This document shows, one piece after another, positions 31,348-48,582 of a stretch of 64,000 bases of DNA. The stretch comes from Cellulomonas timonensis. Its GTDB lineage: Bacteria; Actinomycetota; Actinomycetes; Actinomycetales; Cellulomonadaceae. The number at the start of each line of letters is the position of its first letter. Positions within the stretch are counted from its first letter, which is position 1. Location: contig NZ_FCOT01000013.1 in assembly GCF_900046455.1 (NCBI RefSeq), positions 124,001 to 188,000 of the forward strand. The letters run 5' to 3'. The position numbers and the translations under genes are program-made. Below the pieces are notes generated by a model. That model ran no database searches. It saw only the letters and a program-made list of their open reading frames with translations, and had not been told where the DNA came from.

Positions 31348-31413
31348 CATGTCAGCGGTCCGGGGTGCGGGCGCGCAGGTGACTGCGGGCCGTCGCGGGG
31401 GAGAATGCCCCCT

Positions 31414-32553: not shown

Positions 32554-32622
32554 CCGCGGCCCTCGTTGGGCTCGCGCGCGTCGAGCGGATGGACTGAATC
32601 GCTTCGTAGCCCGGTTCGTCCC

Positions 32623-32674
32623 GTGACACACGGGTTGTCCGCTCCTAGCCTCTCCTGCGGGAGAGCGCTTGCTC
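32623..32674 (+). promoter_or_regulatory. Candidate promoter and LacI-type operator for the PL11 lyase
   Basis: GTGACA at 32623-32628, 17 bp, then TAGCCT at 32646-32651. Ten bases further, GAGAGCGCTTGCTC (32661-32674) carries the AGCGCT core common in LacI-family operators, placed where a repressor would block transcription. The palindrome is imperfect, so the operator call is weak. Confidence 0.38.
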
Positions 32675-32723
32675 GACGCGGGCGCAGGGCCGGGTCGTCT
32701 CCCATCGCTCGAAGGGGAGACTG

Positions 32724-35012
32724 ATGTCAGTTCGACGCAGAGCCACCGGATGGGCCGCCATCGCGGCATTGGCGGCGGGGATGGGGGTGGTCGCCGCCCA
32801 GGGTGCGGTCGCGGCCACGGCCTGCCGCGTCACCTACGAGGTGACGAATCAGTGGTCGACGGGGTTCGGCGGGTCCGTGTCTATCGCGAACCTCGGGGAC
32901 GCGCTCAACGGCTGGACGCTGGGCTGGGCCTTCGGCGCCGGGCAGACCGTCACGCAGGCATGGAACGGCGTCGCCACCCAGTCCGGCAGCGCGGTGAGCG
33001 TGAAGGACGCCGGGTACAACGCGGCGGTGCCCAGCGGCGGATCCGTGTCGTTCGGGTTCAACGGCGCGTGGAACGGGTCGACGAACCCCGCGCCCACAAC
33101 GTTCACCCTCAACGGCACGGTGTGCACGGGATCGGCCGCGACGCCCACCACCACGCCCTCGCCGACCGCGAGCCCGACCACGAGCCCCACCGCCAGCCCC
33201 ACGGCCTCGCCCAGCGCGTCACCGACGCCCACGCCGGAGCCGACGGCGCCGGTGGCGGGCTCCTGGCAGGCCGAGCGCCTCGACCGCGGGCTGATCAGCG
33301 TGCGCTCCGGCAGCGGCAACCTCGTGCAGTGGCGCCTGCTTGGCACGGAGGCGCGCAGCACCACGTTCCACGTCTACCGCGGCGGCACGCGGATCACCTC
33401 GACACCCGTGGCCGACTCCACGAACTTCTACGACGCCGGCGCGGCGGCGAACGCGTCGTACACGGTGCGCGCCGTCGTCAACGGGACCGAGCAGGCCGCC
33501 TCGGGGGCCAGCCTCACGTTCGCCAACGGCTACCTGGACGTGCCGATCCAGAAGCCCGCTGGCGGGACGACGCCCTCGGGGGAGGCGTACACGTACAGCG
33601 CCAACGACGCGAGCGTGGGCGACCTGGACGGCGACGGGCAGCTCGAGTTCGTGCTCAAGTGGGACCCGTCCAACGCCAAGGACAACTCGCAGTCCGGCTA
33701 CACCGGCAATGTCTACCTGGACGCCTATGAGTTGAACGGGACGCGGCTGTGGCGCGTCGACCTGGGGCGCAACATCCGCGCCGGCGCGCACTACACGCAG
33801 TTCCAGGTCTACGACTACGACGGCGACGGCCGGGCCGAGGTGGCGGTGAAGACGGCGGACGGCACCCGATCGGGCACCGGCCAGCTCATCGGCTCGTCGA
33901 GCGCCGACTACCGCAACTCCTCCGGCTACGTGCTCAGCGGCCCCGAGTACCTCACGGTCTTCAAGGGCCAGGACGGGTCCATCGGCGCCACTGCCGACTA
34001 CGTGCCCGCGCGTGGCACGGTGTCGAGTTGGGGCGACTCCTACGGCAACCGGGTGGACAGGTTCCTCGCGGGCACCGCCTACCTGGACGGGCAGCGGCCC
34101 TCGATCATCATGGCGCGCGGCTACTACACGCGGGCCGTCGTGGCGGCATGGGACTACCGCGACGGGTCGCTCACGCGGCGCTGGACCTTCGACTCGAACA
34201 GCTCGTCCGCGGGCAACAGCGCGGTGGCGGGGCAGGGCAACCACCAGCTCTCGATCGCGGACGCCGACGGCGACGGCAAGCAGGAGGTCGTCTACGGCGC
34301 CGCCGCGATCAACGACAACGGCACGGTGATGTGGAACACGGGGCTCGGCCACGGTGACGCGCTGCATGTCGGCGACCTGGATCCCTCGCGCGCCGGGCTG
34401 GAGGTCTTCAAGGTCAGCGAGGACGCCAGCAAGCCGAGCTCGTGGTTCGCGGACGCACGCACCGGGCAGATCCTGTGGTCCACTCCGGCGGGCGGCGACA
34501 ACGGCCGCGGCGTCTCGGGTGACATCTGGTCGGGCAGCGCGGGGGCGGAGTCGTGGTCGTCGGCGGACTCGGTGATGCGCAGCGCGAAGGGCTCCGACAT
34601 CGGGCGCAAGCCGTCGTCGGCGAACTTCCTGGCCTGGTGGGACGGCGACCCGGTGCGCGAGCTGCTGGACCGGACGTATGTGAACAAGTACACGCCGTCT
34701 ACCGACACCCGCCTGCTCACCGCATCGGGGGTCGTCGCGAACAACGGCACCAAGGCCACGCCGTCCCTGTCGGGGGACCTGTGGGGCGACTGGCGTGAGG
34801 AGGTCGTCTGGCCGACCACTGACTCGACGGCGCTGCGGGTCTACGCGACGCCGGCTGTCACGACCTACAAGGTCCACACCCTCCTCCACGACGCGCAGTA
34901 CCGCACGGCGATCGCGTGGCAGAACACGGCCTACAACCAGCCGCCGCACCCGGGGTTCGCACTGGGTGACCCGTTCACGGCTCCGGCTCAGCCGAAGATC
35001 TACACGCCGTAG
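32724..35012 (+). CDS. Secreted CBM2-PL11 rhamnogalacturonan lyase
   Basis: A 762-residue exported enzyme that cleaves the rhamnogalacturonan I backbone of pectin by beta-elimination. Signal peptide about 1-30 (hydrophobic AAIAALAAGMGVVAAQGAVA, AxA-like cut). CBM2 about 32-135 with paired cysteines (ACRVTYEV, TVCTG) and the aromatic residues W43, W62 and W67 region for cellulose binding. A Pro/Thr/Ser linker about 137-173 follows. The PL11 domain (about 175-762) shows SVGDLDGDGQLEFVLKWDPSNAKDN, YDYDGDGRAEVAVKTADG and SIADADGDGKQEVVYG, the calcium-loop signatures of the beta-propeller. CBM order (N-terminal) and the linker suit Cellulomonas-type secreted hydrolases. Confidence 0.93.
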   Translation: MSVRRRATGWAAIAALAAGMGVVAAQGAVAATACRVTYEVTNQWSTGFGGSVSIANLGDALNGWTLGWAFGAGQTVTQAWNGVATQSGSAVSVKDAGYNAAVPSGGSVSFGFNGAWNGSTNPAPTTFTLNGTVCTGSAATPTTTPSPTASPTTSPTASPTASPSASPTPTPEPTAPVAGSWQAERLDRGLISVRSGSGNLVQWRLLGTEARSTTFHVYRGGTRITSTPVADSTNFYDAGAAANASYTVRAVVNGTEQAASGASLTFANGYLDVPIQKPAGGTTPSGEAYTYSANDASVGDLDGDGQLEFVLKWDPSNAKDNSQSGYTGNVYLDAYELNGTRLWRVDLGRNIRAGAHYTQFQVYDYDGDGRAEVAVKTADGTRSGTGQLIGSSSADYRNSSGYVLSGPEYLTVFKGQDGSIGATADYVPARGTVSSWGDSYGNRVDRFLAGTAYLDGQRPSIIMARGYYTRAVVAAWDYRDGSLTRRWTFDSNSSSAGNSAVAGQGNHQLSIADADGDGKQEVVYGAAAINDNGTVMWNTGLGHGDALHVGDLDPSRAGLEVFKVSEDASKPSSWFADARTGQILWSTPAGGDNGRGVSGDIWSGSAGAESWSSADSVMRSAKGSDIGRKPSSANFLAWWDGDPVRELLDRTYVNKYTPSTDTRLLTASGVVANNGTKATPSLSGDLWGDWREEVVWPTTDSTALRVYATPAVTTYKVHTLLHDAQYRTAIAWQNTAYNQPPHPGFALGDPFTAPAQPKIYTP

Positions 35013-35157
35013 CGGGAGGGCGGAACCGCATGGGTGGGGCGGTGGCCTGGTGGCTGCCGCCCCACTCGTGCGCGCGCATCTATCGAGTTGCCCGAGATGT
35101 GCGCTGCCTGCGTGAGGGGAGTGGTGTTCTGTCGCGTGGCCTTGACGCGACAGCCGC

Positions 35158-35727
35158 TCAGGGGGCGACGACGAAGTACTCCGGGCCCGCCTGCTCTGCC
35201 CACGCGGTGATTGCTGCCGTGACGGTGTCCTTGTCCTCGCTGGCCATCACGCTGTGCTCGTCCATCCAGGGCGTCACCGCCCAGACCGTCATGTAGTTCT
35301 CGCCATCGATCGACCCGTACAGCGGGGAGACCACCAGCGCCGTCCGCCCAGAAGCGTCCGACAGGCGCTTCTGCAGGGTCTGAGCGTCAGCCTCAGCGTC
35401 GCTCATCACGAGCCGCTGCTCAGGGGTTGATCCCGAGCCGTTGGCTGGCAGGTTCGCAGCGGCGAGGGCCGCGACGGTTTCCTGCAAGGCCGCCTGCGCG
35501 TCCGGGATGATCACGTCTGGCAGCGGCTGGTCGGCGTAGATGTCGACCTGCGTGCCGTCGTGCATCTCGTACCAGTCGTCGGGCGTGGGCGTCGCGGACG
35601 GTTCGGCCGTCACAGCAGGCGCTGCTGGCGGCGTTGACGTTGAGCATCCCGTCACTGCGGTGACGGTCAGCAGGGCGCCCAGGAGTGTCCCTGCCACGTG
35701 CTTCATAGAACTCTGCACAGAGCTCAC
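35158..35727 (-). CDS. Hypothetical lipoprotein
   Basis: A 189-residue predicted lipoprotein: MSSVQSSMKHVAG, hydrophobic segment, lipobox AVTGC near residue 28, then a Pro/Ala/Thr-rich linker and a soluble domain of about 135 residues. An alternative start is Met8. No family recognised; the body (PLYGSIDGENYMTVWAVTPW, AWAEQAGPEYFVV) suggests a small alpha/beta extracytoplasmic domain. It stands alone and is divergent from the cysteine-leader operon. Confidence 0.72.
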   Translation of the reverse strand: MSSVQSSMKHVAGTLLGALLTVTAVTGCSTSTPPAAPAVTAEPSATPTPDDWYEMHDGTQVDIYADQPLPDVIIPDAQAALQETVAALAAANLPANGSGSTPEQRLVMSDAEADAQTLQKRLSDASGRTALVVSPLYGSIDGENYMTVWAVTPWMDEHSVMASEDKDTVTAAITAWAEQAGPEYFVVAP

Positions 35728-35861
35728 CTCTATCTTCTTTTGACATTGCCATCACACCTATCGGGACCGAACGTTCGCCCTTGAGGGACTCGCGCCCACG
35801 ACGCCGGGCGACGCCCAGACATCCGTTGAGGCCGGCACAGGGCAGCACAAGGAGTGCACGC

Positions 35862-36011
35862 ATGCGCCGACATATGAGATCAAACCGCTCAATGGTTGCC
35901 AACCCGGGCTCTGCGCCGCTGTACTTCTCGCAGGCACAGAGTGTCGATGCCAAGGCCCGGCTCGTCGACCAGCAACCCCTCGATGTGACGGGGTGCTCCG
36001 GGTACGCCTGA
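35862..36011 (+). CDS. Small ORF 1 in the leader (49 aa)
   Basis: ATG 35862 has AAGGAG seven bases upstream, so translation is likely. The product is Arg-rich at the N-terminus (MRRHMRSNRSMV), has GSAPLYFSQAQSVDAKARL in the middle and ends DVTGCSGYA. The stop TGA (36009-36011) touches a perfect hairpin. Function unknown; it may be a leader peptide or a small product in its own right. No family recognised. Confidence 0.5.
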   Translation: MRRHMRSNRSMVANPGSAPLYFSQAQSVDAKARLVDQQPLDVTGCSGYA

Positions 36012-36031
36012 CCGGTCGGCACCCGACCGGT
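36011..36031 (+). promoter_or_regulatory. Hairpin at the stop codon of leader ORF 1
   Basis: ACCGGTCGG at 36011-36019 pairs with CCGACCGGT at 36023-36031 (nine pairs, loop CAC). It starts on the last base of the ORF 1 stop codon. No U-run follows. Confidence 0.6.
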
Positions 36032-36061
36032 AAGCACACCGCATCTGACGAAGGACTGACC

Positions 36062-36139
36062 GTGGCCCACTGGCAGTGTCCCGACGCCCCCTGTGTGGGC
36101 TGTCGACGCATGCTGCTGGTCCCGCGCGCCTGTCGATAG
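36062..36139 (+). CDS. Cys-rich leader peptide (25 aa), probable cysteine attenuator
   Basis: GTG 36062 follows GAAGGA by six bases. The 25-residue peptide begins MAHWQCPDAPCVGC and ends LVPRACR: four cysteines, three of them within nine residues. The stop TAG (36137-36139) overlaps a perfect hairpin. In mycobacteria, polycysteine short ORFs work as cysteine-responsive attenuators of sulfur operons; the operon that follows here contains the enzyme classes of S-substituted cysteine salvage. Detected by reading the gap directly. Strong Shine-Dalgarno and cysteine density support it; translation is not shown. Confidence 0.68.
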   Translation: MAHWQCPDAPCVGCRRMLLVPRACR

Positions 36140-36154
36140 TTCCGACCCGGAACT
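36138..36154 (+). promoter_or_regulatory. Hairpin at the stop codon of the Cys-rich leader ORF
   Basis: AGTTCCG at 36138-36144 pairs with CGGAACT at 36148-36154 (seven pairs, loop ACC). It would be covered by a ribosome that reaches the stop codon and exposed when the ribosome stalls at Cys codons upstream. Confidence 0.55.
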
Positions 36155-36364
36155 GCCCGACACGGCCTCGCCCGTCCGACTGCGCCTCCAGCGCCTCGTC
36201 CTTCGTCTCTGCCTGTCCCGCTGCGCCATGACGGCCGATCGCCGTCCCCTGCGCCAGGGCCGCCCGCTCCCGCGCCCACCCGTCGATGTGACGGGAGGCC
36301 CGCGACGGGCAGGGTCGAGGACGCCTCCACCGCACCGACCCGACCGATCGAGGAGTCGACCCAC

Positions 36365-37987
36365 ATGCGCACCCTGCACCGTCATGCCCCTGGCACGGCC
36401 CTGGCCTTCACCGCCGCACTGGCCCTGTCCGCCTGCGCCGGCAGCGCAGGCGAACCCGCCGAGGGCGGCTCCACGTCCTCGGCGTCGGCGGAGCCGGTGC
36501 GCGGCGGCGACCTGGCCTTCGCGATCACTGTCGACTCCAAGTGCGTCGACCCGCAGCAGGTCGGCAACAACGACGCCATCGCCATCGCGCGCCAGACGGT
36601 GGCGTCCCTCACGGCGCAGAACCCGGAGTCGGGCGAGATCGTGCCGTGGCTGGCCGAGTCGTGGGAGGTGAACGACGACGCCAGCCAGTTCACGTTCCAC
36701 CTGGTCGACGGCGCCACCTACGCCGACGGCACGCCCATCGACGCGGCGTCGGTCAAGACGAACTTCGAGGCCATCGTCGCGCTCGGCGCGAAAGCGTCGC
36801 TGGGCTCGACGTACCTGGTGGACCTCGAGTCGGTGACCACCCCCGACCCGACCACGGTGGTGGTGGACTTCAGCGCGCCGAGCGCGCAGTTCCTCCAGGC
36901 CACGTCAACGTTCTCGCTGGGCCTGCTCTCGCCGGCCTCGGCGGCGCTGAGCGTCGAGGACCGCTGCGCCGGGAAGTTCGACGGGTCGGGGCCGTTCGTC
37001 GTCCAGGAGTACACCGTGGACCAGCGCGCCGTGCTCGCGCGGCGCGACGGGTACACGTGGGGCGCGGCGGGGGCCAGCTCGCACACCGGCGAGGCGTATC
37101 TGGACACCGTCACGTTCACGGTGATCCCCGAGGCCGGTGTTCGCGCCGGGAGCCTGGCGTCCGGGCAGATCGACGCGACCGCGGCCATCGGCACCGCGGA
37201 CCTGCCGCAGTTCGACGGCAACGGGTTCTGGCTCGCGTACCGCGCCAACCCGGGCGTCGTGTTCAACCTGTACCCGAACGAGTCCCGCCCGCTGCTCGCC
37301 GACGAGCGGGTGCGGGTGGCGGTGCTCAAGGGCATCGACCGCGAGGAGGTCACCGGCACGGTGCTCACCCCGCTCGATGAGCCCGCGAGCGCCGCGCTCG
37401 CCCACACGACGCCGCTGTACGACGGGCTGGACGAGCTGCTCGCCTACGACCCCGAGGGCGCCAAGGAGCTCCTGGAGGAGGCCGGCTGGGTGGAGGGGCC
37501 GGACGGCATCCGGGTCAAGGACGGCCAGCCGCTGTCGACCGAGGTGACGTTCTGGCAGGTGAAGGACCCGCTCGAGCTGGTCCAGCAGCAGTTGCGGCAG
37601 ATCGGGTTCGACCTGCGGCTCCACCAGGTGACGATCGCCGAGGCCACTGCCGCCAGCGCCGACGGGGAGTACGACTTCTCCTACGGGAACCTGACCCGCT
37701 CCGACCCGGACATCCTGCGCAACCTCTTCTCGGTGAACGCGCGCAACACGAACAAGCGGGCGGCGGAGCCAGTCGACCAGCTGCTCGACGCGCAGGCCGC
37801 GGCCGTCGACCCGGCGGAGCGGCAGCGGCTCGTCACCGAGGCGTCGCGCCTGCTGCTGGAGAAGGCGCACTCGATCCCCGTGGTGGAGCTGTCCACGACC
37901 ATCGCCGCGGCCGACACCGTGCACGACCTGAAGTTCGAGGCGTCCACCCGCCTGGACTTCTACGACGCGTGGGTGTCCCAGCCATGA
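36365..37987 (+). CDS. ABC transporter substrate-binding lipoprotein (peptide/opine type, SBP_bac_5)
   Basis: A 540-residue extracytoplasmic binding protein, lipobox ALSACAG near residue 23 followed by a Gly/Ser linker. The SBP_bac_5 body reads GGDLAFAITVDSKCVDPQQ near 48, VPWLAESWEVNDDASQFTFHLVDGATYADGTPIDAASVKTNFE (residues about 95-140), and DERVRVAVLKGIDREEV near 310. Starts at ATG 36365 behind GAGGAG. It is the first gene of the operon and should define the ligand; resemblance to importers found beside luciferase-like monooxygenases supports a small modified amino acid over a true peptide. Confidence 0.9.
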   Translation: MRTLHRHAPGTALAFTAALALSACAGSAGEPAEGGSTSSASAEPVRGGDLAFAITVDSKCVDPQQVGNNDAIAIARQTVASLTAQNPESGEIVPWLAESWEVNDDASQFTFHLVDGATYADGTPIDAASVKTNFEAIVALGAKASLGSTYLVDLESVTTPDPTTVVVDFSAPSAQFLQATSTFSLGLLSPASAALSVEDRCAGKFDGSGPFVVQEYTVDQRAVLARRDGYTWGAAGASSHTGEAYLDTVTFTVIPEAGVRAGSLASGQIDATAAIGTADLPQFDGNGFWLAYRANPGVVFNLYPNESRPLLADERVRVAVLKGIDREEVTGTVLTPLDEPASAALAHTTPLYDGLDELLAYDPEGAKELLEEAGWVEGPDGIRVKDGQPLSTEVTFWQVKDPLELVQQQLRQIGFDLRLHQVTIAEATAASADGEYDFSYGNLTRSDPDILRNLFSVNARNTNKRAAEPVDQLLDAQAAAVDPAERQRLVTEASRLLLEKAHSIPVVELSTTIAAADTVHDLKFEASTRLDFYDAWVSQP

Positions 37988-38937
37988 CCCGTTACGTGCT
38001 CCGCCGGCTGGCGCAGGGGGCAGTCGTCCTGTGGGCCGCGTTCACCGTGACGTTCGCCATCTTGTACCTGCTGCCCAGCGACCCGGTGGAGCTGATGGCC
38101 TCCGGCGGCGGGGAGCAGTCGGTCATCGACCCGGCGCTGCTGGCGGAGCTGCGCGCGGAGCATGGGCTCGACCGGCCGCCGCTCGCCCAGTACCTGCACG
38201 CGCTGGGCGGCGCGGCCCGGCTCGACTTCGGCCGCTCCTACCAGTCCGACGCCCCGGCGACGTCGCTGATCCTGGACGTGCTGCCGCAGACCTTGCAGCT
38301 CACCGTCGCAGGGCTCGCGCTGTCCGTGCTGCTCGGCGTCGGGCTGGCCGTGGCGAGCACGTACCCGCGCACGCGGTGGCTGCGGCACGCCCTCGCGGCG
38401 CTGCCACCGCTGGGGGTGTCCCTGCCGGTGTTCTGGGTGGGGCTGATGCTGGTGCAGGTCTTCAGCTTCCAGTGGCGGCTGTTCCCGGCGATCGGCAACG
38501 ACGGCCTCGCGAGCCTCGTGCTGCCCGCGGTGGCCCTGGCACTGCCGACCAGCGCGTCGATCGCGCAGCTCTTGGCGCGGTCGCTGCGCCAGACGCTGGC
38601 CGAGCCGTACATCGAGACGGCGCGGGCCAAGGGCACCGGGCGGGCGCGCGTGCACTTCCGCCACGCGCTGCGCAACGCGTCGATCCCCGCGTTGACGGTG
38701 CTCGGCGTGAGCGTCGGCCAGCTGCTCTCCGGCGCGGTGGTCACCGAGACGGTCTTCTCGCGGGTGGGGCTGGGCCGGCTCACGATCTCCGCGGTGAACA
38801 CCCAGGACATCCCCGTGGTGATGGCGGTGGTCGTGTTCTCGGCGCTCGTGTTCGTGGTCGTCGCGCTCGCGGTCGACCTGTTGTACCCGCTGGTGGACCC
38901 CCGCATCAGCCTCCGCCGCGCGCCGGTCGCCGCATGA
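37984..38937 (+). CDS. ABC transporter permease 1 (DppB-type)
   Basis: A 317-residue inner-membrane permease with about six helices. ATG 37984 overlaps the binding-protein stop (ATGA). DppB marks are MTRYVLRRLAQGAVVLWAAF, LYLLPSDPVELMA near residue 28, the coupling loop EPYIETARAKGTGRARVHFRHALRNASIP near 205-235 (EAA motif), and VVTETVFSRVGLGRL near 253. Confidence 0.92.
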   Translation: MTRYVLRRLAQGAVVLWAAFTVTFAILYLLPSDPVELMASGGGEQSVIDPALLAELRAEHGLDRPPLAQYLHALGGAARLDFGRSYQSDAPATSLILDVLPQTLQLTVAGLALSVLLGVGLAVASTYPRTRWLRHALAALPPLGVSLPVFWVGLMLVQVFSFQWRLFPAIGNDGLASLVLPAVALALPTSASIAQLLARSLRQTLAEPYIETARAKGTGRARVHFRHALRNASIPALTVLGVSVGQLLSGAVVTETVFSRVGLGRLTISAVNTQDIPVVMAVVVFSALVFVVVALAVDLLYPLVDPRISLRRAPVAA

Positions 38938-38965
38938 CCTGGCGCCCGAGACAAGGAGCGATCTG

Positions 38966-39874
38966 ATGGCAGCAGTCGAGCACCTGCAGCCCGGCGCATC
39001 CCACGCGGCCGGCGCCGTGATCCCGGCCCCCGGACGGCGCTGGCCGGCGTCGGCGGCCCGCCCGGTGTGGCATGCGCTGCGCCGCAGCCCGGGGCTGACG
39101 CTCTCGGTCCTGGTGCTGCTGGGCGTGGCGGCGTGGGTCGTCGCGCCGGGCCTGTTCACCTCTGCCGATCCGATCACCGGCGTCCCGGCCGAGCGCCTGC
39201 AGGGCCCCTCCGCCGCGCACCCGTTCGGCACCGACCAGATCGGGCGGGACCTGTTCGCCCGGGTGGTGCACGGGGCCGCGCTGTCGATCCAGGCGACAGT
39301 CGTCGCCGTGGTCGTGGGCCTGGCCGTCGGCACGTTCCTGGGCCTGCTGGCCGGGTTCCTGCGGGGGTGGGTGGACGACGTGGTGGGGCGCGTCGTCGAC
39401 GTGCTGCTCGCCATCCCGGGATTGCTGCTGTCGCTGGCCCTGGTCACCGTGCTGGGCTTCGGCTCCCTCAAGGTGGCCGTGGCGGTAGGCATCACCAGCG
39501 TGGCGGCCTTCGCCCGGGTGATGCGCTCCGAGGTGCTGCGGGTGAGCGCCTCGGTGTACGTCGAGGCCGCGCGCTCGTCGGGCGCCCGCTGGCATGCGGT
39601 GCTGGGCCAACATGTGCTGCCCAACGCCTCGGGGCCGGTGCTCGCGCTCGTGGCGCTCGAGTTCGGCGCAGCGATCCTGGCGATCTCCGCGCTGAGCTTC
39701 CTGGGCTACGGCGCGGCGCCTCCCGCGCCCGAGTGGGGGTCGCTGGTCTCCGAGGGGCGCAACTACCTGGCCGCCGCCTGGTGGCTCGCCACGTTCCCGG
39801 GCCTGGTGATCGTTGCCGTGGTGCTGTCGGCGAACCGCGTCGCGCGTGCGCTGGAACGACGGGTGGAGGACTGA
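38966..39874 (+). CDS. ABC transporter permease 2 (DppC-type)
   Basis: A 302-residue permease behind AAGGAG. Marks: [20 protein letters not shown] near residue 87, GVLLGLLAGF-like helices, the coupling segment [27 protein letters not shown] (about 200-226), and the closing [22 protein letters not shown]. Partner of permease 1; its stop overlaps the next start by one base (TGATG). Confidence 0.92.
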
Positions 39875-41565
39875 TGGGCACGGTGGCCGAGCAGGGCCCG
39901 CTGCTGAGCGTCGAGGACCTGCGCGTGTCGTACCGGTCCGGGGAGGGGCGGGCCGACGCGGTGCGTGGCGTGACCCTGGAGGTGCGCCCCGGCGAGGTCG
40001 TGGCGCTCGTGGGGGAGTCGGGCTCGGGAAAGAGCACCCTCGCGCACGCCGTCATCCACCTGCTCGCCCGTGGCGGACGCGTGGACGGTGGCAGGCTGCG
40101 CTTCGGCGGCGAGGACCTCACCGGGCTGTCCGAGCAGCAGTGGCGCGAGGTGCGCGGCCGGGACATCGGGCTCGTCCCCCAGGACCCCACGGTGTCTCTC
40201 AACCCCGTCATGCGGGTCGGCGCGCAGGTGGCCGAGGTGCTCGTCCTGCACGGGCTCGCCGGGCGGCGGCAGGCCCGCGCCCGCGCGGTCGAGCTGCTCG
40301 GCGAGGCCGGGCTCGACCGCCCGGAGGTGCGCGCCCGCCAGTACCCCACCGAGCTCTCCGGCGGGATGCGCCAGCGCGTGCTCATCGCCGTCGCGCTCGC
40401 GGCCCGGCCACGCTTGGTGATCGCCGACGAGCCGACCTCGGCCCTCGACGTCACTGTGCAGCGCGGCATCCTCGACCACATTGCCGCGCTCACCTCGACG
40501 CTCGGCACCGCGGTGCTGCTCATCACGCATGACCTGGGCGTCGCCGCGGACCGCGCGGACCGCATCGTCGTGCTCCAGCACGGGCAGGTCGTCGAGCACG
40601 GCCCGACGGCGCACGTGCTGGGCGCGCCGCGCCACCCGTACACGCGGGCGCTGATCGCCGCCGCGCCGAGCCTGGCGGACATCCCCGGGCGACGGGCGCC
40701 GGCCGCCCGGACGGAGCCGGTGGGCGGACCAGGCTCCGCTCTGCCAGACGACGGCCGGGCCGCCCCGCTGCTCAGCGCGCGCGGGCTGGTCAAGGAGTTC
40801 GCCCTGCCCCGCACGGCAGGCGGCGCCCGCACCCTGCGGGCCGTCGACGAGGTGAGCTTCGAGATCCCGCCCGGGCGCACGTTCGCGCTGGTGGGCGAGT
40901 CGGGATCGGGCAAGAGCACCACCGCGCGGCTGGTGCTGCGCTTGGAGCAGCCCACGTCCGGCACGGTCCACCTCGACGGGGCGGACGTGACGCGGGTGTC
41001 GGGGGAGCGGCTGCGCCGGCTGCGGCGACGCGTGCAGGTCGTCTATCAGAGCCCGTACGCGTCGCTGGACCCGCGCTTCACCGTCGAGCGGGTGATCGCC
41101 GAGCCGTTGCGCGCGTTCCGCGTCGGCGACGCCGCGACCCGTGCGGCCCGGGTCTGTGAGCTCCTCGACCGCGTCGCGCTGCCGGCGGGCGTCGCGGGCC
41201 GGCTGCCCGCGGAGCTCTCGGGCGGCCAGCGGCAGCGCGTGGCCATCGCGCGGGCACTCGCCCTGCACCCGGACCTGGTGGTGCTCGACGAGCCGGTCTC
41301 CGCGCTCGATGTGTCCGTCCAGGCGCAGATCCTGGACCTGCTGGCGGAGCTGCAGGCCGAGCACGGGCTGAGCTACCTCTTCATCTCCCATGACCTGGCC
41401 GTCGTGCGGCAGATCGCCGACGAGGTGGGCGTGATGCATCGTGGGCGGCTCGTCGAGCGCGGGACGCCGGAGCAGGTGCTGCTCGACCCGCGGCAGGCGT
41501 ACACGCGCGAGCTCGTCGAGGCCGTGCCCGGGCGGCGGGCGCGTGCGCTGGGGGTGTCCGGGTGA
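39874..41565 (+). CDS. Fused double ABC ATPase (DppD-DppF type)
   Basis: One 563-residue polypeptide with two complete ATPase domains. Domain 1: Walker [15 protein letters not shown] near residue 48, signature [17 protein letters not shown] near 160, Walker [14 protein letters not shown] near 183. Domain 2: [14 protein letters not shown] near 338, [17 protein letters not shown] near 448, [13 protein letters not shown] near 470. Each is followed by the oligopeptide-type C-terminal extension ([27 protein letters not shown]). The fusion supplies both nucleotide-binding subunits for the two permeases. Confidence 0.93.
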
Positions 41566-41733
41566 GGCTGGCAGGCGCGGTCCAGGGTGGTGTCGGGCAT
41601 CGGCCATGCCCGCGTGGTTGGCCTCGTGTGCGCTGCGGGCACCATCCTGGTCCTGGCGACGGCGTCGTTGACCGACGTCCACCCCTCCGAGGCGCCACTC
41701 GGACCGACCCCGCACCACCCAGGGAGACCCACG

Positions 41734-41811
41734 ATGACCGAGCATCCGCTCACCGCCCCACCGCGCGACCGGGGTCTCGACCGGCTGCTGACCGAAAGCC
41801 GCGGGCGATGA
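41734..41811 (+). CDS. Small ORF before the M20 gene (25 aa)
   Basis: AGGGAG lies seven bases before ATG 41734, and the TGA at 41809-41811 overlaps the ATG of the M20 gene (ATGA). Product begins MTEHPLTAPPRDRGLDRLL and ends TESRGR. It may be a translational coupler for the next gene, or a start of a longer ORF from 41587 whose N-terminal part is hydrophobic (VVGLVCAAGTILVLATA). No family recognised. Confidence 0.42.
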   Translation: MTEHPLTAPPRDRGLDRLLTESRGR

Positions 41812-43175
41812 GCGAGGACCGCACACGGCCGGCGCCGCCGAGCACCGCCTATCTCGACGCGCTGCGGGCGCAGACGGAGCGCCGCCGGGCGACCTTCGTC
41901 CCATCGGCCTCACCGCACCAGGGCGCAGCTGAGCGCGATGTGGCACGGGTCCGGTCCGCCGCCGAGGCCCAGCAGGATGACGTCGTCGCGCTCTCGCGCG
42001 TCATCCACGCGCATCCCGAGGAGGCGTTCCAGGAGCGCCGGGCCGCGGCGGAGATCGCCGACCTGATGGCCAGGCACGGCGTCACCGCGACTGTCGGCTC
42101 GCACGGCCTGGCCACGGCGCTGCGCGCCGGGCTGACGGCCGCAGGCCCGGACTCCGGGGATCCCGACCTGGGCGCGGGCCCCACCGTGGCGATCCTCGCG
42201 GAGTACGACGCGCTGCCGGGGATCGGCCACGCCTGCGGCCACAACGTGATCGCCGCGGCGGGCGTGGGGGCGGTCCTCGCGCTGCGCCGGGCGGGGGCCG
42301 ACGGGCTCGCGCTGCCGGGCCGGGTGCTGCTCCTGGGCACCCCGGCCGAGGAGGGGAACTCCGGCAAGGAGATCCTCGCGCGCGCCGGGTTCTTCGACGG
42401 GGTCGACGCTGCGGTGATGGTCCACCCGTTCGGCTATGACGTCGTCGACCACCCGTTCTTGGGGCGCCGCCGCCTGCGCGTGACCTATCACGGCGTCGCG
42501 GCGCACGCGTCGGCGAGCCCGTTCATGGGGCGGAACGCGCTCGACGCCGTCGCACTCAACTACCAGGCGGTCGGTTTTCTCCGCCAGCACATCCCGCCCT
42601 CGGACCGCGTCCACGGCATCGTGCTCGAGGGCGGGGAGCGGCCGAGCGTCGTGCCCGAGCGCGCCACCCTCGAGTACTACGTGCGATCGGCGCACGCCGC
42701 CACGCTCCGCGACCTATCCCAGCGCCTGGAGGACATCGCCCACGGCGTCGCGCTGGCCACCGGCACCACCGCCGAGGTGACCTGGGATCCCGTGCCGTTC
42801 AGCCTGCCGCTGCGCACCAACACCCCGCTGGCCGAGCGCTGGGCCCAGCACCAGGCGGCGCAGGGGCGCACCGCGCTCGCGGGCGGCATCGTGCCGGAGA
42901 TCCTCGCCGCGTCGACGGACTTCGGGAACGTGAGCCAGCGGCTGCCCGGCATCCACCCGATGATCGCCGTCAGCGAGCCCGACGTCGCCCTGCACACCCG
43001 CGAGTTCGCCCACGCCGCGGGCGGGCCGGCCGGCGACCGGGCCGCGATCGACGGGGCCATCGGGCTGGCGCTCACGGCGCTGGACTACCTTGCCGACCCG
43101 CAGCTGCGGGCGGCGGTCCTCCAGGACTTCGAGGACGCCGGTGGCCAGGTGGATGTGCCCGGCTATTTCGAGTGA
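41808..43175 (+). CDS. M20-family amidohydrolase/deacylase (AbgB/HipO-like)
   Basis: A 455-residue zinc-type amidohydrolase of the M20D group. Start ATG 41808 (MSEDRTRPAPPSTAYLD). Catalytic marks: VIHAHPEEAFQERRAA near residue 65, EYDALPGIGHACGHNV near 135 (metal-binding CGH motif), the general-base pair TPAEEGNSGKE near 180 and MVHPFGYD near 205, with the dimerisation domain VAAHASASPFMGRNALDA near 235. M20D enzymes remove N-acyl groups from amino acids. In the Bacillus ytm and yxe operons such an enzyme (SndA/SndB) deacetylates N-acetylcysteine derivatives; I infer the same step here from context. Confidence 0.88.
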   Translation: MSEDRTRPAPPSTAYLDALRAQTERRRATFVPSASPHQGAAERDVARVRSAAEAQQDDVVALSRVIHAHPEEAFQERRAAAEIADLMARHGVTATVGSHGLATALRAGLTAAGPDSGDPDLGAGPTVAILAEYDALPGIGHACGHNVIAAAGVGAVLALRRAGADGLALPGRVLLLGTPAEEGNSGKEILARAGFFDGVDAAVMVHPFGYDVVDHPFLGRRRLRVTYHGVAAHASASPFMGRNALDAVALNYQAVGFLRQHIPPSDRVHGIVLEGGERPSVVPERATLEYYVRSAHAATLRDLSQRLEDIAHGVALATGTTAEVTWDPVPFSLPLRTNTPLAERWAQHQAAQGRTALAGGIVPEILAASTDFGNVSQRLPGIHPMIAVSEPDVALHTREFAHAAGGPAGDRAAIDGAIGLALTALDYLADPQLRAAVLQDFEDAGGQVDVPGYFE

Positions 43176-43231
43176 GCGAGCCGCGGGGGCCAAGCGACGG
43201 CCGAACGGGCAGGACGAGGGACAGGGAACGG

Positions 43232-44242
43232 ATGACCATCGAGATTCGCAGCGCGCGCGTCGACGAGCACCCCGCGGTGGGGCGCCTGACCGAGCACGGC
43301 TTCGCCACCGGGGTGTACGGGCCGACCACGAATCCGGAGCGCGTGCGGCTGCTGCGCGACGCCGCCGGGCGAGCCGCCAGCGGCGACCTGCTGGTGGCCG
43401 TCGAGGGCGACGAACTGCTCGGCACGGCCAGCCTGCTGCGGAACGGCACAGACCACGCCCGCGAGGCGCGGGACAGCGAGGCCGAGCTGCGGCTGCTCAC
43501 GGTCGCCCCCGCCGGGCGGGGCCGGGGCATCGGGGGCGCGATGGTCCTCGAGTCCCTGGACCGGGCGCGCGCCTGGGGCATGGACGCGCTCGTCCTGGAC
43601 ACTGGGCCGGCCAACGTGGACGCGCAGCGCCTCTACGAGCGGCTGGGGTTCACCCGTGACGTCGAGCGCGAGACGGCAGAGGTGCCGGGCGTCGGGCGCC
43701 TCGTGTTCTACAGGTACGACTTCTCCCGACACGGCGTGCTCGTCCGGCTGATCGCCGCGCATGAGCATCAGCGGGTCGCCGAGCTGACCGTCGCGGCGTA
43801 CAGCCACGACTACGAGCTCAGTGACCGGTACCGCGCCGAGCTCGCGGACGTCGAGACCCGCGCGCGCGAGCACGAGGTGTGGGTGGCCCAGGACCTGGCG
43901 ACCGGCGCGCTGCTGGGCGCTGTCGCCACCCCACGGCCAGGGGCCCGCATCTCCCTGGTCGCGGAGGACGGCGAGCTCGACTTCCGGCTCCTCGCCGTCG
44001 ATCCGGCTGCCCGCCGGCGCGGCGTCGGCGAGCTGCTCACCCGGCACGTCGTGGGCCTCGCGCGGCAGCGCGGCCTGCGGAGCGTGGTGATGTACTCCGG
44101 GGCGCAGATGACCGGCGCCCACCGGCTCTACGAACGGCTCGGCTTCACCCGGTTGCCCGAGCGCGAGACCCACATCTTCGAGGGGGGACCGCTCCTCGCG
44201 TTCGGCCTCGACGTCGCGACCCCCGAAGGAGCACGCCGATGA
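43232..44242 (+). CDS. Two-domain GNAT acetyltransferase
   Basis: A 336-residue protein built from two GNAT domains. Domain 1 (about 1-165): LRLLTVAPAGRGRGIGGAMV near residue 87, the full R-x-x-G-x-G/A acetyl-CoA loop, and RLYERLGFTRDVERET near 130. Domain 2 (about 170-336): FRLLAVDPAARRRGVGELLTRHVV near 252 and HRLYERLGFTRLPERETHIF near 293. Start ATG 43232 behind ACAGGGA. The two C-terminal halves are alike, suggesting internal duplication. Context (importer, M20 deacylase, FMN monooxygenase) suggests N-acetylation of a cysteine derivative, as by SnaA/SnaB in Bacillus. Stop overlaps the next start. Confidence 0.88.
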   Translation: MTIEIRSARVDEHPAVGRLTEHGFATGVYGPTTNPERVRLLRDAAGRAASGDLLVAVEGDELLGTASLLRNGTDHAREARDSEAELRLLTVAPAGRGRGIGGAMVLESLDRARAWGMDALVLDTGPANVDAQRLYERLGFTRDVERETAEVPGVGRLVFYRYDFSRHGVLVRLIAAHEHQRVAELTVAAYSHDYELSDRYRAELADVETRAREHEVWVAQDLATGALLGAVATPRPGARISLVAEDGELDFRLLAVDPAARRRGVGELLTRHVVGLARQRGLRSVVMYSGAQMTGAHRLYERLGFTRLPERETHIFEGGPLLAFGLDVATPEGARR

Positions 44243-45330
44243 GGTTCCAGGTCCTCGACATCGTCCCGCACACCCCGCACCCCGTCACCGGCGAGCTGAT
44301 CGGCCCCACGGAGCGGCTCGAGCGGGTGGTGCAGAACGCGGTCCTCGCCGAGCAGCTCGGCTTCGACTCGTACGCCGTGGGGGAGCGGCACGCCGGCGAC
44401 TTCCTGTCCTCCTCGCCCACCGTGCTGCTCGGCGCGCTCGCGCAGGCCACCGAGCGCATCCTGCTGAGCACCGGGGTCACCGTGCTCTCGCTGCTGGACC
44501 CGGTGCGCGTCGCCGAGGACTACGCCACCGTCGACCAGCTCTCCGGCGGGCGGCTCGAGATCATCATCGGCAAGGGCAACGAGGACCGGCACTTCCCGCT
44601 GTTCGGGCTCGACATCGCCCACCAGTACGACTACCTCCAGGAGAACTACGAGCTGCTGCGGCGCCTGCTGCGCGAGGAGCACGTCGACTGGTCGGGCCGC
44701 TTCCATGCCCCGCTGGCCGACGCGACGACGCAGCCCCGCCCCTTCGACGGCCCGTTCCGCGTGTGGCACGGCTCCGCGACGTCGACCTTCGCCGTCGAGC
44801 TCGCCGCCCGATGGGGTGACCCGATCTTCACGGCGAACGCGTTCCAGCCCCGGGAGGCCTACAAGGCGCTCATCGACCACTACCGCGAGCAGTACGCGGC
44901 CTACGGCCACGACCCGGCGAAGGCGTACGTCGGCTCCGGATCGGGCGGGCTGTTCCTCGCCGACACCACCGAGCAGGCGACGGCCGAGTACCGGGCGGTG
45001 TACGAGGCGCAGGCCGCCCGCACCGCCGCCGCGCACGCCGGTGACGGCCGTCCCGGCAAGGCGTCGTCCTTCCCCACCCTCGAGGACGCGGTGGCGCACG
45101 GGCCGGCGCTGGTGGGCTCCCCGGAGCAGGTGGCCGAGAAGATCCTCGGCTACCACAAGGCCTACGGCCACGACGTCCAGTCCGTCTCGCTCAACCCCGT
45201 GCTGCCCTATGAGCAGCAGCAGGACGTGCTGCGCCGCTTCGCCGAGGAGGTGGCGCCGCTGGTGCGCCGCGAGGTGTCGACGACACTGTGGGGGCCGGAC
45301 GACGCGGGCCGGGCGCGCGGGCTCGCCTGA
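44239..45330 (+). CDS. Luciferase-like FMN-dependent monooxygenase
   Basis: A 363-residue LLM-class TIM-barrel flavoenzyme, start ATG 44239 overlapping the GNAT stop (ATGA). Marks: VVQNAVLAEQLGFDSYAVGERH near residue 30, TERILLSTGVTVLSLLDPVRVAEDYATVDQLSGGR (about 70-105), IIGKGNEDRH near 112, and the barrel end VWHGSATSTFAVELAARWGDPIFTANAF near 175. Resembles the luciferase-like families found next to SBP_bac_5 importers (CE1758-type). In the salvage hypothesis it oxidises the S-substituent of an N-acetylcysteine thioether and frees the thiol, like CmoJ/YtnJ or YxeK. Reduced FMN would come from a reductase not seen here. Confidence 0.9.
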   Translation: MRFQVLDIVPHTPHPVTGELIGPTERLERVVQNAVLAEQLGFDSYAVGERHAGDFLSSSPTVLLGALAQATERILLSTGVTVLSLLDPVRVAEDYATVDQLSGGRLEIIIGKGNEDRHFPLFGLDIAHQYDYLQENYELLRRLLREEHVDWSGRFHAPLADATTQPRPFDGPFRVWHGSATSTFAVELAARWGDPIFTANAFQPREAYKALIDHYREQYAAYGHDPAKAYVGSGSGGLFLADTTEQATAEYRAVYEAQAARTAAAHAGDGRPGKASSFPTLEDAVAHGPALVGSPEQVAEKILGYHKAYGHDVQSVSLNPVLPYEQQQDVLRRFAEEVAPLVRREVSTTLWGPDDAGRARGLA

Positions 45331-45411
45331 CGGCCTGGCCTGTGCGGTGAGGCGGGCCCGACGGTCGAGACGGGGCTCGATGGGCGGAGGGCCCCGGACT
45401 ACGCTGGCGTC

Positions 45412-46737
45412 ATGACTGCCTCGCTCGAGAACACGGTCGCGACCCCGACGTCCCACGCCGCGGGCCCGGCCCCCGACGTGGCCGAGCAGGTGCTGGCCGC
45501 CGCGAGGCGCGCGAAGTCGGCCGCGCGGGTGCTCGCGACGGCGACCCGGGCCACCAAGGACGCCGCCCTGGACGCCCTCGCCGACGCCCTCGTCGCGCAC
45601 ACCGACGAGATCCTCGAGGCCAACGCCGAGGACCTCGAGCGCGGCCGCGAGAACGGCACGTCGTCGGGGCTGCTCGACCGGCTCGCGCTGACCGACGCCC
45701 GCATCGTCGCCATCGCCGAGGCGCTGCGCGAGCTGGCCGCGCTGCCCGATCCGGTGGGGGAGGTCGTGCGCGGCTCCACGCTGCCCAACGGACTGCGCCT
45801 GCGCCAGGTCCGGGTGCCGATGGGCGTGGTCGGGATGATCTACGAGGCCCGCCCCAACGTCACTGTCGACGCCGCCGGGCTGGCGCTCAAGAGCGGCAAC
45901 GCCGTCGTGCTGCGCGGGGGCTCGGCAGCCGCCCGCAGCAACGAGGTCATCGTGGGCGTCCTCGGCGCGGCGCTGGCCGCGCAGGGCCTGCCCGCCGACC
46001 TGGTCCAGTCCATCGACGCCTACGGCCGCGAGGGCGCCGTCGCGCTCATGCACGCGCGCGGGCTGGTGGACGTGCTCGTCCCGCGCGGTGGCGCGGACCT
46101 GATCCAGACCGTGGTGCGCGAGTCCACGGTGCCCGTCGTGGAGACGGGCGTCGGCAACTGCCACGTGTACGTCGACGCCAGCGCCGATCCCGCGATGGCG
46201 CTGCCCATCCTGCTCAACTCGAAGACCCAGCGGGTGGGGGTGTGCAACGCGGCCGAGACGCTGCTGGTGCACGCCGACGCCGCCGCCGGGTTCCTGCCCG
46301 CGGCCCTGGCGGCGCTCGCGGGGGAGGGCGTCGTGCTGCACGGCGACGCGGCGACGGCGGCGCTCGCCCCCGAGGGCGTGGCCGTGGTCCCCGCCACCGA
46401 CGAGGACTGGGCGACGGAGTACCTGTCGCTGGACCTGGCCGTGCGCGTCGTGGACGACCTGGACGCCGCGATCGAGCACATCCGCACCTGGTCGTCGGGG
46501 CACACCGAGGCGATCGTCACGCGCGACCTCGCGGCGTCGGAGCGGTTCGTCGCGGAGCTCGACTCGGCGGCGGTCATCGTCAACGCGTCGACCCGGTTCA
46601 CCGACGGCGGCCAGTTCGGGCTCGGCGCGGAGATCGGGATCTCGACTCAGAAGCTGCACGCCCGGGGGCCCATGGGCCTCGCGGAGCTGACCACGACGAA
46701 GTGGGTCGTGCACGGTGACGGGCACGTCCGGGCCTGA
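45412..46737 (+). CDS. proA: Gamma-glutamyl phosphate reductase
   Basis: Second step of proline synthesis, NADPH-dependent reduction of glutamyl 5-phosphate. 441 residues from ATG 45412. Aldehyde-dehydrogenase fold marks: [37 protein letters not shown] (about 138-175), the catalytic cysteine in [20 protein letters not shown] near 280, and [23 protein letters not shown] near 398-420. TACGCT lies six bases before the ATG, a possible leaderless promoter. Confidence 0.96.
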
Positions 46738-46944: not shown

Positions 46945-46988
46945 GCGCGGCTCCGAGCACCACGAGGACGAGAGCGAGGTTGCAGCCG

Positions 46989-47591
46989 ATGACGCCGCGA
47001 CGGCCACGGCTCGGTGTGATGGGCGGCACGTTCGACCCCATCCACCACGGTCACCTGGTCGCCGCGAGCGAGGTCGCCGCCCAGTTCGACCTGGACGAGG
47101 TGATCTTCGTCCCGACGGGCCACCCGACGTTCAAGCAGGACCAGCACGTCACAGCCGCCGAGCACCGGTACCTGATGGCGGTCATCGCGACCGCGTCGAA
47201 CCCGCGCTTCACGGTGAGCCGCGTCGACATCGACCGTCCGGGGCTGACCTACACGGTCGACACGCTGCGCGACCTCAACCTGCACCGGCCGGGCGCCGAT
47301 CTGTTCTTCATCACCGGGGCGGACGCCGTCGAGCAGATCCTCACGTGGAAGGACCCGGACGAGCTCTTCGGCATGGCGCAGTTCGTGGCCGTGACGCGTC
47401 CCGGTCATACGTTGTCCATCGCCGGCCTGCCCGCGGACAGGGTGAGCCAGCACGAGATCCCTGCGCTGGCCATCTCCTCGACGGACGTCCGGGCGCGTGC
47501 GCGCGCCGGGCACCCCGTCTGGTACCTCGTCCCCGACGGGGTGGTCCAGTACATCGCGAAGCACGGCCTGTATCGAGGTAACGATGAGTGA
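46989..47591 (+). CDS. nadD: Nicotinate-nucleotide adenylyltransferase
   Basis: Adenylates nicotinate mononucleotide in NAD synthesis. The ATG at 46989 gives 200 residues ([20 protein letters not shown]); a TTG nine bases earlier is less likely. Nucleotidyl-transferase motif [15 protein letters not shown] near residue 12, [11 protein letters not shown] near 40, [17 protein letters not shown] near 80, and [13 protein letters not shown] near 163. Its stop overlaps the start of the next gene by eight bases. Confidence 0.95.
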
Positions 47592-48582
47592 ACCCGGAGA
47601 GCGTCGCCGCCGTCGAGAGATGGCCCGAACGGACGACCCTGGAGCCGTGGACGGCGCCGCGGGTCCCGACAGCGCGCCGATGTCCCGTCGCGCGCTGCGC
47701 AGCCAGCCCGTGCAGTCCGTCGGACCCGACGGCCAAGGTGGCGGCCAGGGGCCGTACCAGGTGCCCGGCTTGGCGCCCGAGCCCGCGAGCCCGATGCGCT
47801 CGCGCCGTTCGATCCGCGACACCTCGCTGGAGCCCTCCGGCCCGCGCCAGGGCCCGGTGGCCCCGTCCCCGAGCCCACGAGACAGGCAGCAATCTCGTAT
47901 GCCGTCTTCTGCTTGAAAAAAAAAACAAATTTCATACCAGCCTCACCCTTACCTTCATTATGGTTCTCGTTAGCGACCACGTCCCCTTTATATCCCATCT
48001 ACTCGGCTGCTTTACCGCGTCCAATCGGCCTGGGGCGCCGCCGCGGCGCCGGTGGACGCCCCCGCCGAGAACCCCGCGGCCGGTGTGCCCTGGCGTCCCA
48101 CGGCGAGCCCCGCGGGCCCGTCTTGGGCGAGCACCGCGCCCGCCGCCCCGGCCGCTCCCGCAGCCCGCACCGCTCCGCCCGCCGTGCCGGTCGACGCGCC
48201 TGCCGGCGCCGGGCCCGCGTGGGCGCCGAGCGGAGCGCCCGCCTCCGTCCCCGCCGAGGAGCCGGCGGCTCCGCCGTGGGGCGCCCTGTCGCGCACCACA
48301 CGCGCTGGGGCCGAGGCGCAGCCGGAGCCTGGGGCCAGCGCCACGCCGTACGCTAGTGACGACGACGACGAGGACGACGAGTACGACGAGCGCCCTTCGC
48401 ACCCGTACACCTGGCTGCAGCTCATCGTGCTGGCTCTCGTCGCGTTCGTCCTCGGCTTCCTCATCATGCTGCTCGGCAGCAAGGCAGCCGGTGGCGACGA
48501 GTCGGCCGCTGGCCCGGCCACCACCGACGTGGCTGCCGGCGTCGTGGCCGTCGACATCTCACCCGGTCTGCGCGTGCTCTGA
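47584..48582 (+). CDS. Hypothetical membrane protein between nadD and rsfS, interrupted by adapter sequence
   Basis: From ATG 47584 the frame encodes a hydrophilic, Arg/Pro-rich start ([18 protein letters not shown], then [14 protein letters not shown]) and runs into Illumina adapter sequence near 47869. Genuine coding sequence returns by about 48050 with Pro/Ala-rich low complexity, an acidic patch ([13 protein letters not shown]) and a membrane helix [22 protein letters not shown] near the end, with a short outer tail. An Arg/Pro-rich protein with a C-terminal membrane anchor commonly occupies this place. True length cannot be known from this sequence. Confidence 0.65.
47869..48020. other. 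Illumina i7/P7 adapter, poly-A and AT-rich noise (artefact)
   Basis: 47869-47883 reads CCGAGCCCACGAGAC, the constant part of the Nextera i7 adapter. 47884-47891 reads AGGCAGCA, one base from index N703 (AGGCAGAA). 47892-47915 is the complete P7 flow-cell end (begins ATCTCGTATGCCG, ends TCTGCTTG), then ten A. About 90 bases of low-GC sequence follow before normal 70 percent GC returns near 48015-48030. The order is exactly that of a read running off a short insert. Confidence 0.97.

Follow-up and report, generated by a model that had tools for sequence, protein, structure and literature searches.

The stretch analysed here, 64,000 nucleotides from contig NZ_FCOT01000013.1 of Cellulomonas timonensis (the window), carries a seven-gene operon headed by an S-adenosylmethionine (SAM)-IV riboswitch, and we propose that this operon very probably serves the SAM-controlled salvage of organic sulfur. 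The seven open frames all lie on the plus strand between 36365 and 45330 and encode a peptide-type importer, an M20 deacylase, a tandem GNAT acetyltransferase, and a luciferase-like monooxygenase (LLM), as listed in Table 1. Pfam and NCBIfam agree with each assigned name, and the positions and names given in an earlier note, which had been made from the letters and open frames alone, hold for all seven genes. That note began the unit at the first gene, however, and so missed the SAM-IV aptamer that lies 322 nt before it. Its description of mostly overlapping stops and starts is correct at three of the six junctions, where the overlaps are 4, 1, and 4 nt, but not at the other three. Permeases B and C are separated by 28 nt, and the apparent overlaps of the M20 and GNAT genes arise only from the GTG starts of the longest frames (41562 and 43172). 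In the orthologous frames of G005, one of 149 genomes (that of the window included) that were searched, the first available start codon falls one codon before the residue matching ATG 41808 and two codons before that matching ATG 43232. Because these frames have no start codon much earlier, the two ATG codons appear the likelier starts, leaving gaps of 242 and 56 nt.

Table 1. The riboswitch-headed operon in the window, with the likelier start codons of the M20 and GNAT genes.
Feature	Position	Strand	Basis
SAM-IV riboswitch aptamer (RF00634)	35933-36042	+	cmscan
Leader from aptamer to first start codon, 322 nt	36043-36364	+	
SBP_bac_5 solute-binding lipoprotein, Dpp/Nik-like	36365-37987	+	Pfam/NCBIfam
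Dpp/Opp-type permease B	37984-38937	+	Pfam/NCBIfam
Dpp/Opp-type permease C	38966-39874	+	Pfam/NCBIfam
Fused two-domain ABC ATPase, DppD-DppF type	39874-41565	+	two ABC_tran stretches
M20D amidohydrolase/deacylase, PM20D2/HmrA-like branch	41808-43175	+	TIGR01891, alignment
Tandem GNAT acetyltransferase, two related domains (~1-166, ~167-336)	43232-44242	+	Pfam/NCBIfam, predicted structure
LLM flavin monooxygenase, CE1758/2I7G-like	44239-45330	+	NCBIfam, PDB sequence and fold matches

The aptamer matches its Rfam model from end to end (1–116 of 116), scoring 67.5 bits where the gathering threshold is 38 (E 8.5e-10 over 64 kb). The ligand of the SAM-IV family is SAM, not cysteine, and SAM riboswitches usually switch genes off. 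The same element lies ~321 nt ahead of the same gene in Cellulomonas cellasea ET82 (G006), the closest named genome found, whose LLM is 99% identical to that of the window. As the sole close relative differs from the window at just 15 of 501 columns around the riboswitch, the conservation of leader frames cannot be judged, and short Cys-containing frames in the leader were set aside as uninformative. A scan for intrinsic terminators found none between 35000 and 47000 (mean of 1.4 in shuffled sequence) and a promoter consensus scan found nothing, although such scans say little in an actinobacterium. In Corynebacterium glutamicum, a SAM-IV riboswitch precedes cg1478, according to excerpts of PMC3890552.

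Three SAM-IV riboswitches were found in this genome, a lower bound as 150 of 1928 first-look candidates were scored, and since they stand ahead of this operon, a flavin mononucleotide (FMN) reductase gene, and a SufS-like gene, every one of them heads sulfur or flavin genes. The second (C12:466386) precedes the FMN reductase (nearest TIGR03567, at 89.6 bits below its cut-off) and a second flavin-reductase-like gene, with an MsnO8-family LLM (TIGR03558, over the cut-off) and a cystine-type ABC importer with a GNAT in the permease frame beside it on the opposite strand. One such frame, L044:4023-5588 (minus strand), holds a GNAT domain (35–148) and a cystine-type ABC permease (256–455) that are separate genes in relatives, and is thus an apparent gene fusion. 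The third (C12:933985; 110.5 bits; G000:C12:932485-935599, L001, L043) precedes a SufS-family-like class V aminotransferase, a pyridoxal-phosphate enzyme, and 7–10 kb from it lie an NtaA-family LLM (over the cut-off) and a weaker LLM (below the cut-off).

The link between riboswitch and operon recurs in other genomes. Orthologs of permease B (E 1e-85) occur in 28 of the 149 genomes, and in 17 of these a SAM-IV riboswitch precedes the permease gene in the same orientation at no more than 3.2 kb, a limit chosen with the riboswitch coordinates already in view; 16 lie within 2.2 kb, with G070 the 17th at 3.1 kb. Such distances are expected if the riboswitch heads the binding protein or the permease. 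The cross-genome searches scored 90 candidates per genome in one run and 150 in another, and their counts are lower bounds. Orthologs of the LLM (at least 50% identity) are found in 27 genomes. Counting riboswitches of either orientation and to either side, 14 of these orthologs have one at 5 kb or less and 20 at 10 kb or less. With uniform placement, 0.76 LLM orthologs would be expected to have one within 15 kb, and none of 27 copies of a core LLM paralog (37–42% identical) has one even within 40 kb. This count takes only the nearest riboswitch on the same contig, uses one chosen control row per genome, and leaves out the LLM of G056, which is in two pieces and fell below the E-value used. 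With R1, a model built from riboswitches on the contigs of L064, L066, L067, L088, L089, and the near-identical counterpart of the window (L112), 12 of 65 LLM loci carry a strong match in flanks of up to 10 kb; L074, L078, L080, L083, L090, and L109 lie outside the R1 alignment, the 65 include one non-ortholog (L127, 32%), and two weak matches (L063, L122) were left uncounted. A SufS-like gene with its own SAM-IV riboswitch directly adjoins the LLM ortholog in Actinomycetospora soli (L074) and Pseudonocardia endophytica (L080), a pairing that joins, in other families, two of this genome's three riboswitch targets. An FMN reductase homolog is no more than 3 kb away from the LLM at three Oerskovia (L088–L090) and five Cellulomonas loci (L097, L099, L102, L107, L125). 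The associations of SAM-IV with the importer and of the LLM with the GNAT are more than chance.

In Cellulomonas relatives, tblastn maps and family checks place these genes within larger islands that contain an NtaA-type LLM, DUF1684, a further GNAT, a cystine-type importer, a flavin adenine dinucleotide (FAD) amine oxidase, and a nitroreductase, together with an MsnO8 LLM, a rhodanese, a GNAT, an SsuD-like LLM, the window-type LLM, and often a Dpp-type importer and FMN reductase. This inventory is a composite, all of which no single locus need contain, and the maps, made with a simple gene caller and tblastn with chosen queries, display only genes of the query set. Among the island neighbors of the LLM and the second GNAT domain are cystine-type importers, LLMs of the MsnO8, SsuD-like, and NtaA types, rhodanese, and nitroreductase. 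The SAM-IV-linked islands have the LLM, a GNAT domain, an importer, and the riboswitch in common with the operon, but whereas they hold up to four LLM families along with the cystine-type importer, oxidase, nitroreductase, and rhodanese, the window has a reduced Dpp-M20-GNAT-LLM form. In Rhodococcus qingshengii IGTS8 grown on dibenzothiophene versus sulfate, the excerpted proteome report (PMC8557817) gives as raised a cystine-type ATPase and binding protein, a sarcosine oxidase (peg5783–5785), SsuD/SfnG, and an NtaA-type 'ScmK', and as lowered two rhodanese-type proteins; at the level of protein families this response fits the islands, rhodanese excepted. Several loci carry divergent pairs of SAM-IV riboswitches a few hundred bases apart that face genes on both strands (L027:9006-9381, L030:3979-4366, L052:4636-5038, L053:1259-1687, L109:85-452), and a MocR-like pyridoxal-phosphate protein (L030:2753-4126, minus strand; YczR model 200.7 bits, below the cut-off) sits between two sulfur-island riboswitches. 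A DUF1684 protein recurs with LLMs and importers, often beside the NtaA-type LLM (L031, L039, L040, L042, L049–L058, L060, L061), and this placement is a lead for its function.

The earlier note had proposed that the operon does the same as the ytm and yxe operons of Bacillus subtilis. Organic-sulfur salvage and the set of importer, GNAT, LLM, and M20D stand, but the LLM, M20, and importer proved to be of other types. As in the B. subtilis scm (yxe) and ytm clusters, an ABC importer, a GNAT, an LLM-superfamily FMN monooxygenase, and an M20D deacylase stand in one operon; unlike scm, the window combines another LLM family and another M20D branch with a tandem GNAT and SAM-IV control. The Bacillus importers are of the polar amino acid (cystine) type, whereas the importer here was rightly called Dpp-type, consisting of an SBP_bac_5 protein and Dpp/Nik-type permeases. 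The family nearest to the binding protein is TIGR04028 (KPN_01854), of which it is not a member (298.4 bits against a cut-off of 468.5).

The earlier note had suggested comparing the M20 and LLM with their Bacillus counterparts, and neither sides with them. The family nearest to the LLM is TIGR04036 (CE1758), at 261.9 bits against a curated cut-off of 479.1, while TIGR03860 (NtaA/DszA, the family of CmoJ and ScmK) gives 55.8 bits against 279.7. PDB sequence searches return the Agrobacterium monooxygenase 2i7g (Atu2307) at 152 bits and YtnJ at 25. The 2i7g/Atu2307 and CE1758 families are thus closest in sequence and fold, with the LLM under the curated cut-offs of both, and orthology to CmoJ/YxeK was rejected because the TIGR03860 and YtnJ scores are far below these. 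YxeK/ScmK is not among the best 50 fold matches listed for the LLM, which excludes nothing. The M20 belongs to M20D (TIGR01891, 241.4 bits against a cut-off of 153.75) and keeps the motifs HACGH (141–145), EE (181–182), H206, and H396 in all eight aligned sequences, residues that we take to be metal-binding. Among its PDB matches, the Xaa-Arg dipeptidase scores 217 bits and YxeP (1ysj) 47, so that orthology to YxeP was rejected and the closest solved relatives are PM20D2 Xaa-Arg dipeptidase and HmrA, from which the M20 here is set apart by its operon partners, a GNAT and an LLM. YtnL and YhaA were judged through their kinship with ScmP (YxeP); the three share 35–50% identity in the excerpts of PMC12757645. 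With three defining components (LLM, deacetylase, importer) differing, the operon would work like the Bacillus salvage operons but, as far as sequence comparison can tell, falls outside their orthologous set.

The M20 and importer also bear on the order of the steps. Given a Dpp/Nik/Gsi-like importer and an M20 nearest to Xaa-Arg dipeptidase, one could suppose that an S-substituted cysteinyl dipeptide or gamma-glutamyl conjugate is imported and hydrolysed first by a PM20D2-like dipeptidase, with the GNAT serving another purpose. We consider this unlikely, as in G025, G045, G084, and C. rhizosphaerae (L109) the M20, GNAT, and LLM form a run that follows a gene for an MFS transporter, not the Dpp genes, and these runs mark the GNAT, not the peptide importer, as its more constant partner. 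In seven of eight genomes, the closest M20 orthologs (at least 72% identity) are no more than 16 kb from the LLM.

As the earlier note saw, the acetyltransferase is duplicated: two related GNAT domains are fused in one frame, and each is found alone in relatives. The predicted structure (pLDDT, a per-residue confidence score, 88.1) matches GNAT folds in each half, and the ranking of these matches, with many tied GNATs, holds no information on the substrate. The names SnaA/SnaB are absent among the 11 PDB matches of the GNAT, a search in which the SnaA/SnaB sequences themselves were not compared. The first half does resemble YncA-type acetyltransferases among the tied matches, and YncA acts on methionine sulfone. 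The salvaged compound might be another sulfur amino compound (methionine sulfone or sulfoxide, S-methylmethionine, a sulfonate-bearing amine, or N-acylated methionine), whose amine the GNAT would acetylate and on which the LLM would act in an SsuD/SfnG-like manner. A riboswitch family that senses SAM rather than cysteine, the SsuD-like LLMs that adjoin the LLM in many relatives, and an NlpA/MetQ-like lipoprotein in the G075 island fit this alternative, but cystine-type importers recur in the islands and the tied fold matches say nothing of the substrate; we regard it as possible, though clearly less probable than salvage of a cysteine thioether.

We favor, with a probability of roughly 0.55, the acetylation, cleavage, and deacylation of a cysteine thioether under SAM repression. 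From the observed genes, riboswitch, and recurrent linkage, we infer the chemical steps, the direction of the switch, and the substrate as follows. Low SAM, and hence low methionine or cysteine, would permit expression of the operon; the Dpp-type importer would take in an S-substituted cysteine, either free or in the form of a small peptide or acyl derivative, and the tandem GNAT would N-acetylate the S-substituted cysteine. The CE1758-like LLM, with reduced FMN from the separately encoded SAM-IV-headed FMN reductase, would then break the C-S bond by oxygenating the sulfur or the carbon next to it, after which the M20D would remove the acyl group to give cysteine or a close product, from which the SAM-IV-headed SufS-like enzyme may free sulfur. 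In B. subtilis, the sequence of acetylation, breakdown, and deacetylation is demonstrated with S-(2-succino)cysteine, according to excerpts of PMC12757645 and PMC9706529. For the cleavage we propose a parallel in the ytm/ytn operon, where an N-acetyl intermediate undergoes flavin-dependent C-S cleavage (excerpts of PMC10863075); in its CmoO/CmoJ route, studied for S-alkylcysteines, one flavoenzyme forms a sulfoxide and a second cleaves it. As that route uses two flavoenzymes and this operon, unlike ytm/ytn, has a single LLM and none of the CmoJ family, the LLM may do both steps, may cleave in one ScmK-like step, or may form only the sulfoxide and need the NtaA-type (CmoJ-family) LLM at C12:941 kb to cleave it. 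A survey of 102 yxe loci, as excerpted from PMC9706529, includes 11 with neither known cleavage enzyme.

Several observations weigh against salvage of a cysteine thioether by this operon. Its cleavage and deacetylation enzymes fall outside the Bacillus subfamilies, and CmoJ-family (NtaA-type) and MsnO8-family LLMs are encoded at other loci of the same genome, where S-alkylcysteine salvage may be done instead; given these enzymes, the operon probably serves a substrate other than theirs. The linkage is also incomplete: 11 of the 28 importers have no SAM-IV riboswitch upstream in the lower-bound search, seven of the 27 LLM orthologs have none within 10 kb and four none within 40 kb, and in only six of the 20 with one within 10 kb is the nearest upstream on the same strand, so that elsewhere it heads neighboring genes. 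M20 orthologs at 51–61% identity occur in 28 genomes, of which 23 have no LLM ortholog and only G141 has the M20 near an LLM. Twelve genomes have only the second GNAT half, eight of them without an M20 match at E 1e-70, and four of 20 genomes (G005, G051, G066, G072) have the GNAT beside proA, distant from SAM-IV and with no LLM ortholog. As the GNAT, M20, and importers also occur apart from the LLM or SAM-IV, the parts of the operon are recruited as modules, with no part confined to this pathway. The tandem or single GNATs next to proA without other parts in G051, G066, and G072, like the tandem GNATs of the clavulanate and mycothiol pathways, would fit a role outside sulfur metabolism, in general peptide scavenging or drug or toxin modification, with a false or unrelated riboswitch match. 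This is very improbable, as the match is full length and far above the gathering score and 16 other genomes have a SAM-IV riboswitch ahead of the same importer.

The operon is flanked by a proB-like gene upstream (31405-32553) and a proA-like gene (45412-46737) that begins 81 nt after the LLM, both named from their translations; a relative of the latter is a Pfam Aldedh protein. The interval from the proB-like gene to the riboswitch encodes a large secreted protein that resembles polysaccharide lyases and holds a small frame of lipoprotein type (32724-35012 and 35158-35727, minus strand; named from translation alone). The gap before proA is a variable site in this family (window 31405-46737, L025, L026, L028–L030, L037), holding the tandem GNAT alone, M20-GNAT, or a whole sulfur island depending on the genome. 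An exact Illumina P7 primer sequence at 47892-47915 (minus strand), followed by an A-run and an AT-richer odd stretch (~47890-48015), is an assembly artefact ~300 nt past the gene at 46980-47591, and its translations are spurious. In C. cellasea ET82 (L024:11133-12867), the ABC ATPase homolog is broken across two frames near residue 400, by a true frameshift or an assembly error.

Within the open-licence literature, none of the papers listed (8–20 at most per search) deals, by its title and abstract opening, with this operon, with the function of CE1758 or KPN_01854, or with SAM-IV and such an importer. We put forward, tentatively and at slightly less than even odds, a SAM-IV-controlled actinobacterial route, absent from the literature searched, for the salvage of cysteine or a related sulfur amino acid from S-substituted derivatives. 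In it, C-S cleavage would fall to a CE1758/2I7G-type LLM, acetylation to the tandem GNAT, which may handle two different substrates or steps, and deacylation to a PM20D2-type M20, while the SAM-IV-headed SufS-like enzyme and FMN reductase would round off the regulon. Such a route would place several orphan families (CE1758-like LLMs, KPN_01854-like binding proteins, PM20D2-like bacterial M20Ds, the tandem GNAT, and DUF1684) in a class of function and in a regulon that can be tested. It also suggests that organic-sulfur scavenging in actinobacteria is controlled by a SAM riboswitch and draws on several coexisting monooxygenase types. Should the LLM indeed cleave N-acetyl cysteine thioethers, it would represent a further enzymatic solution to this step beside CmoJ/ScmK and the succino-lyase.

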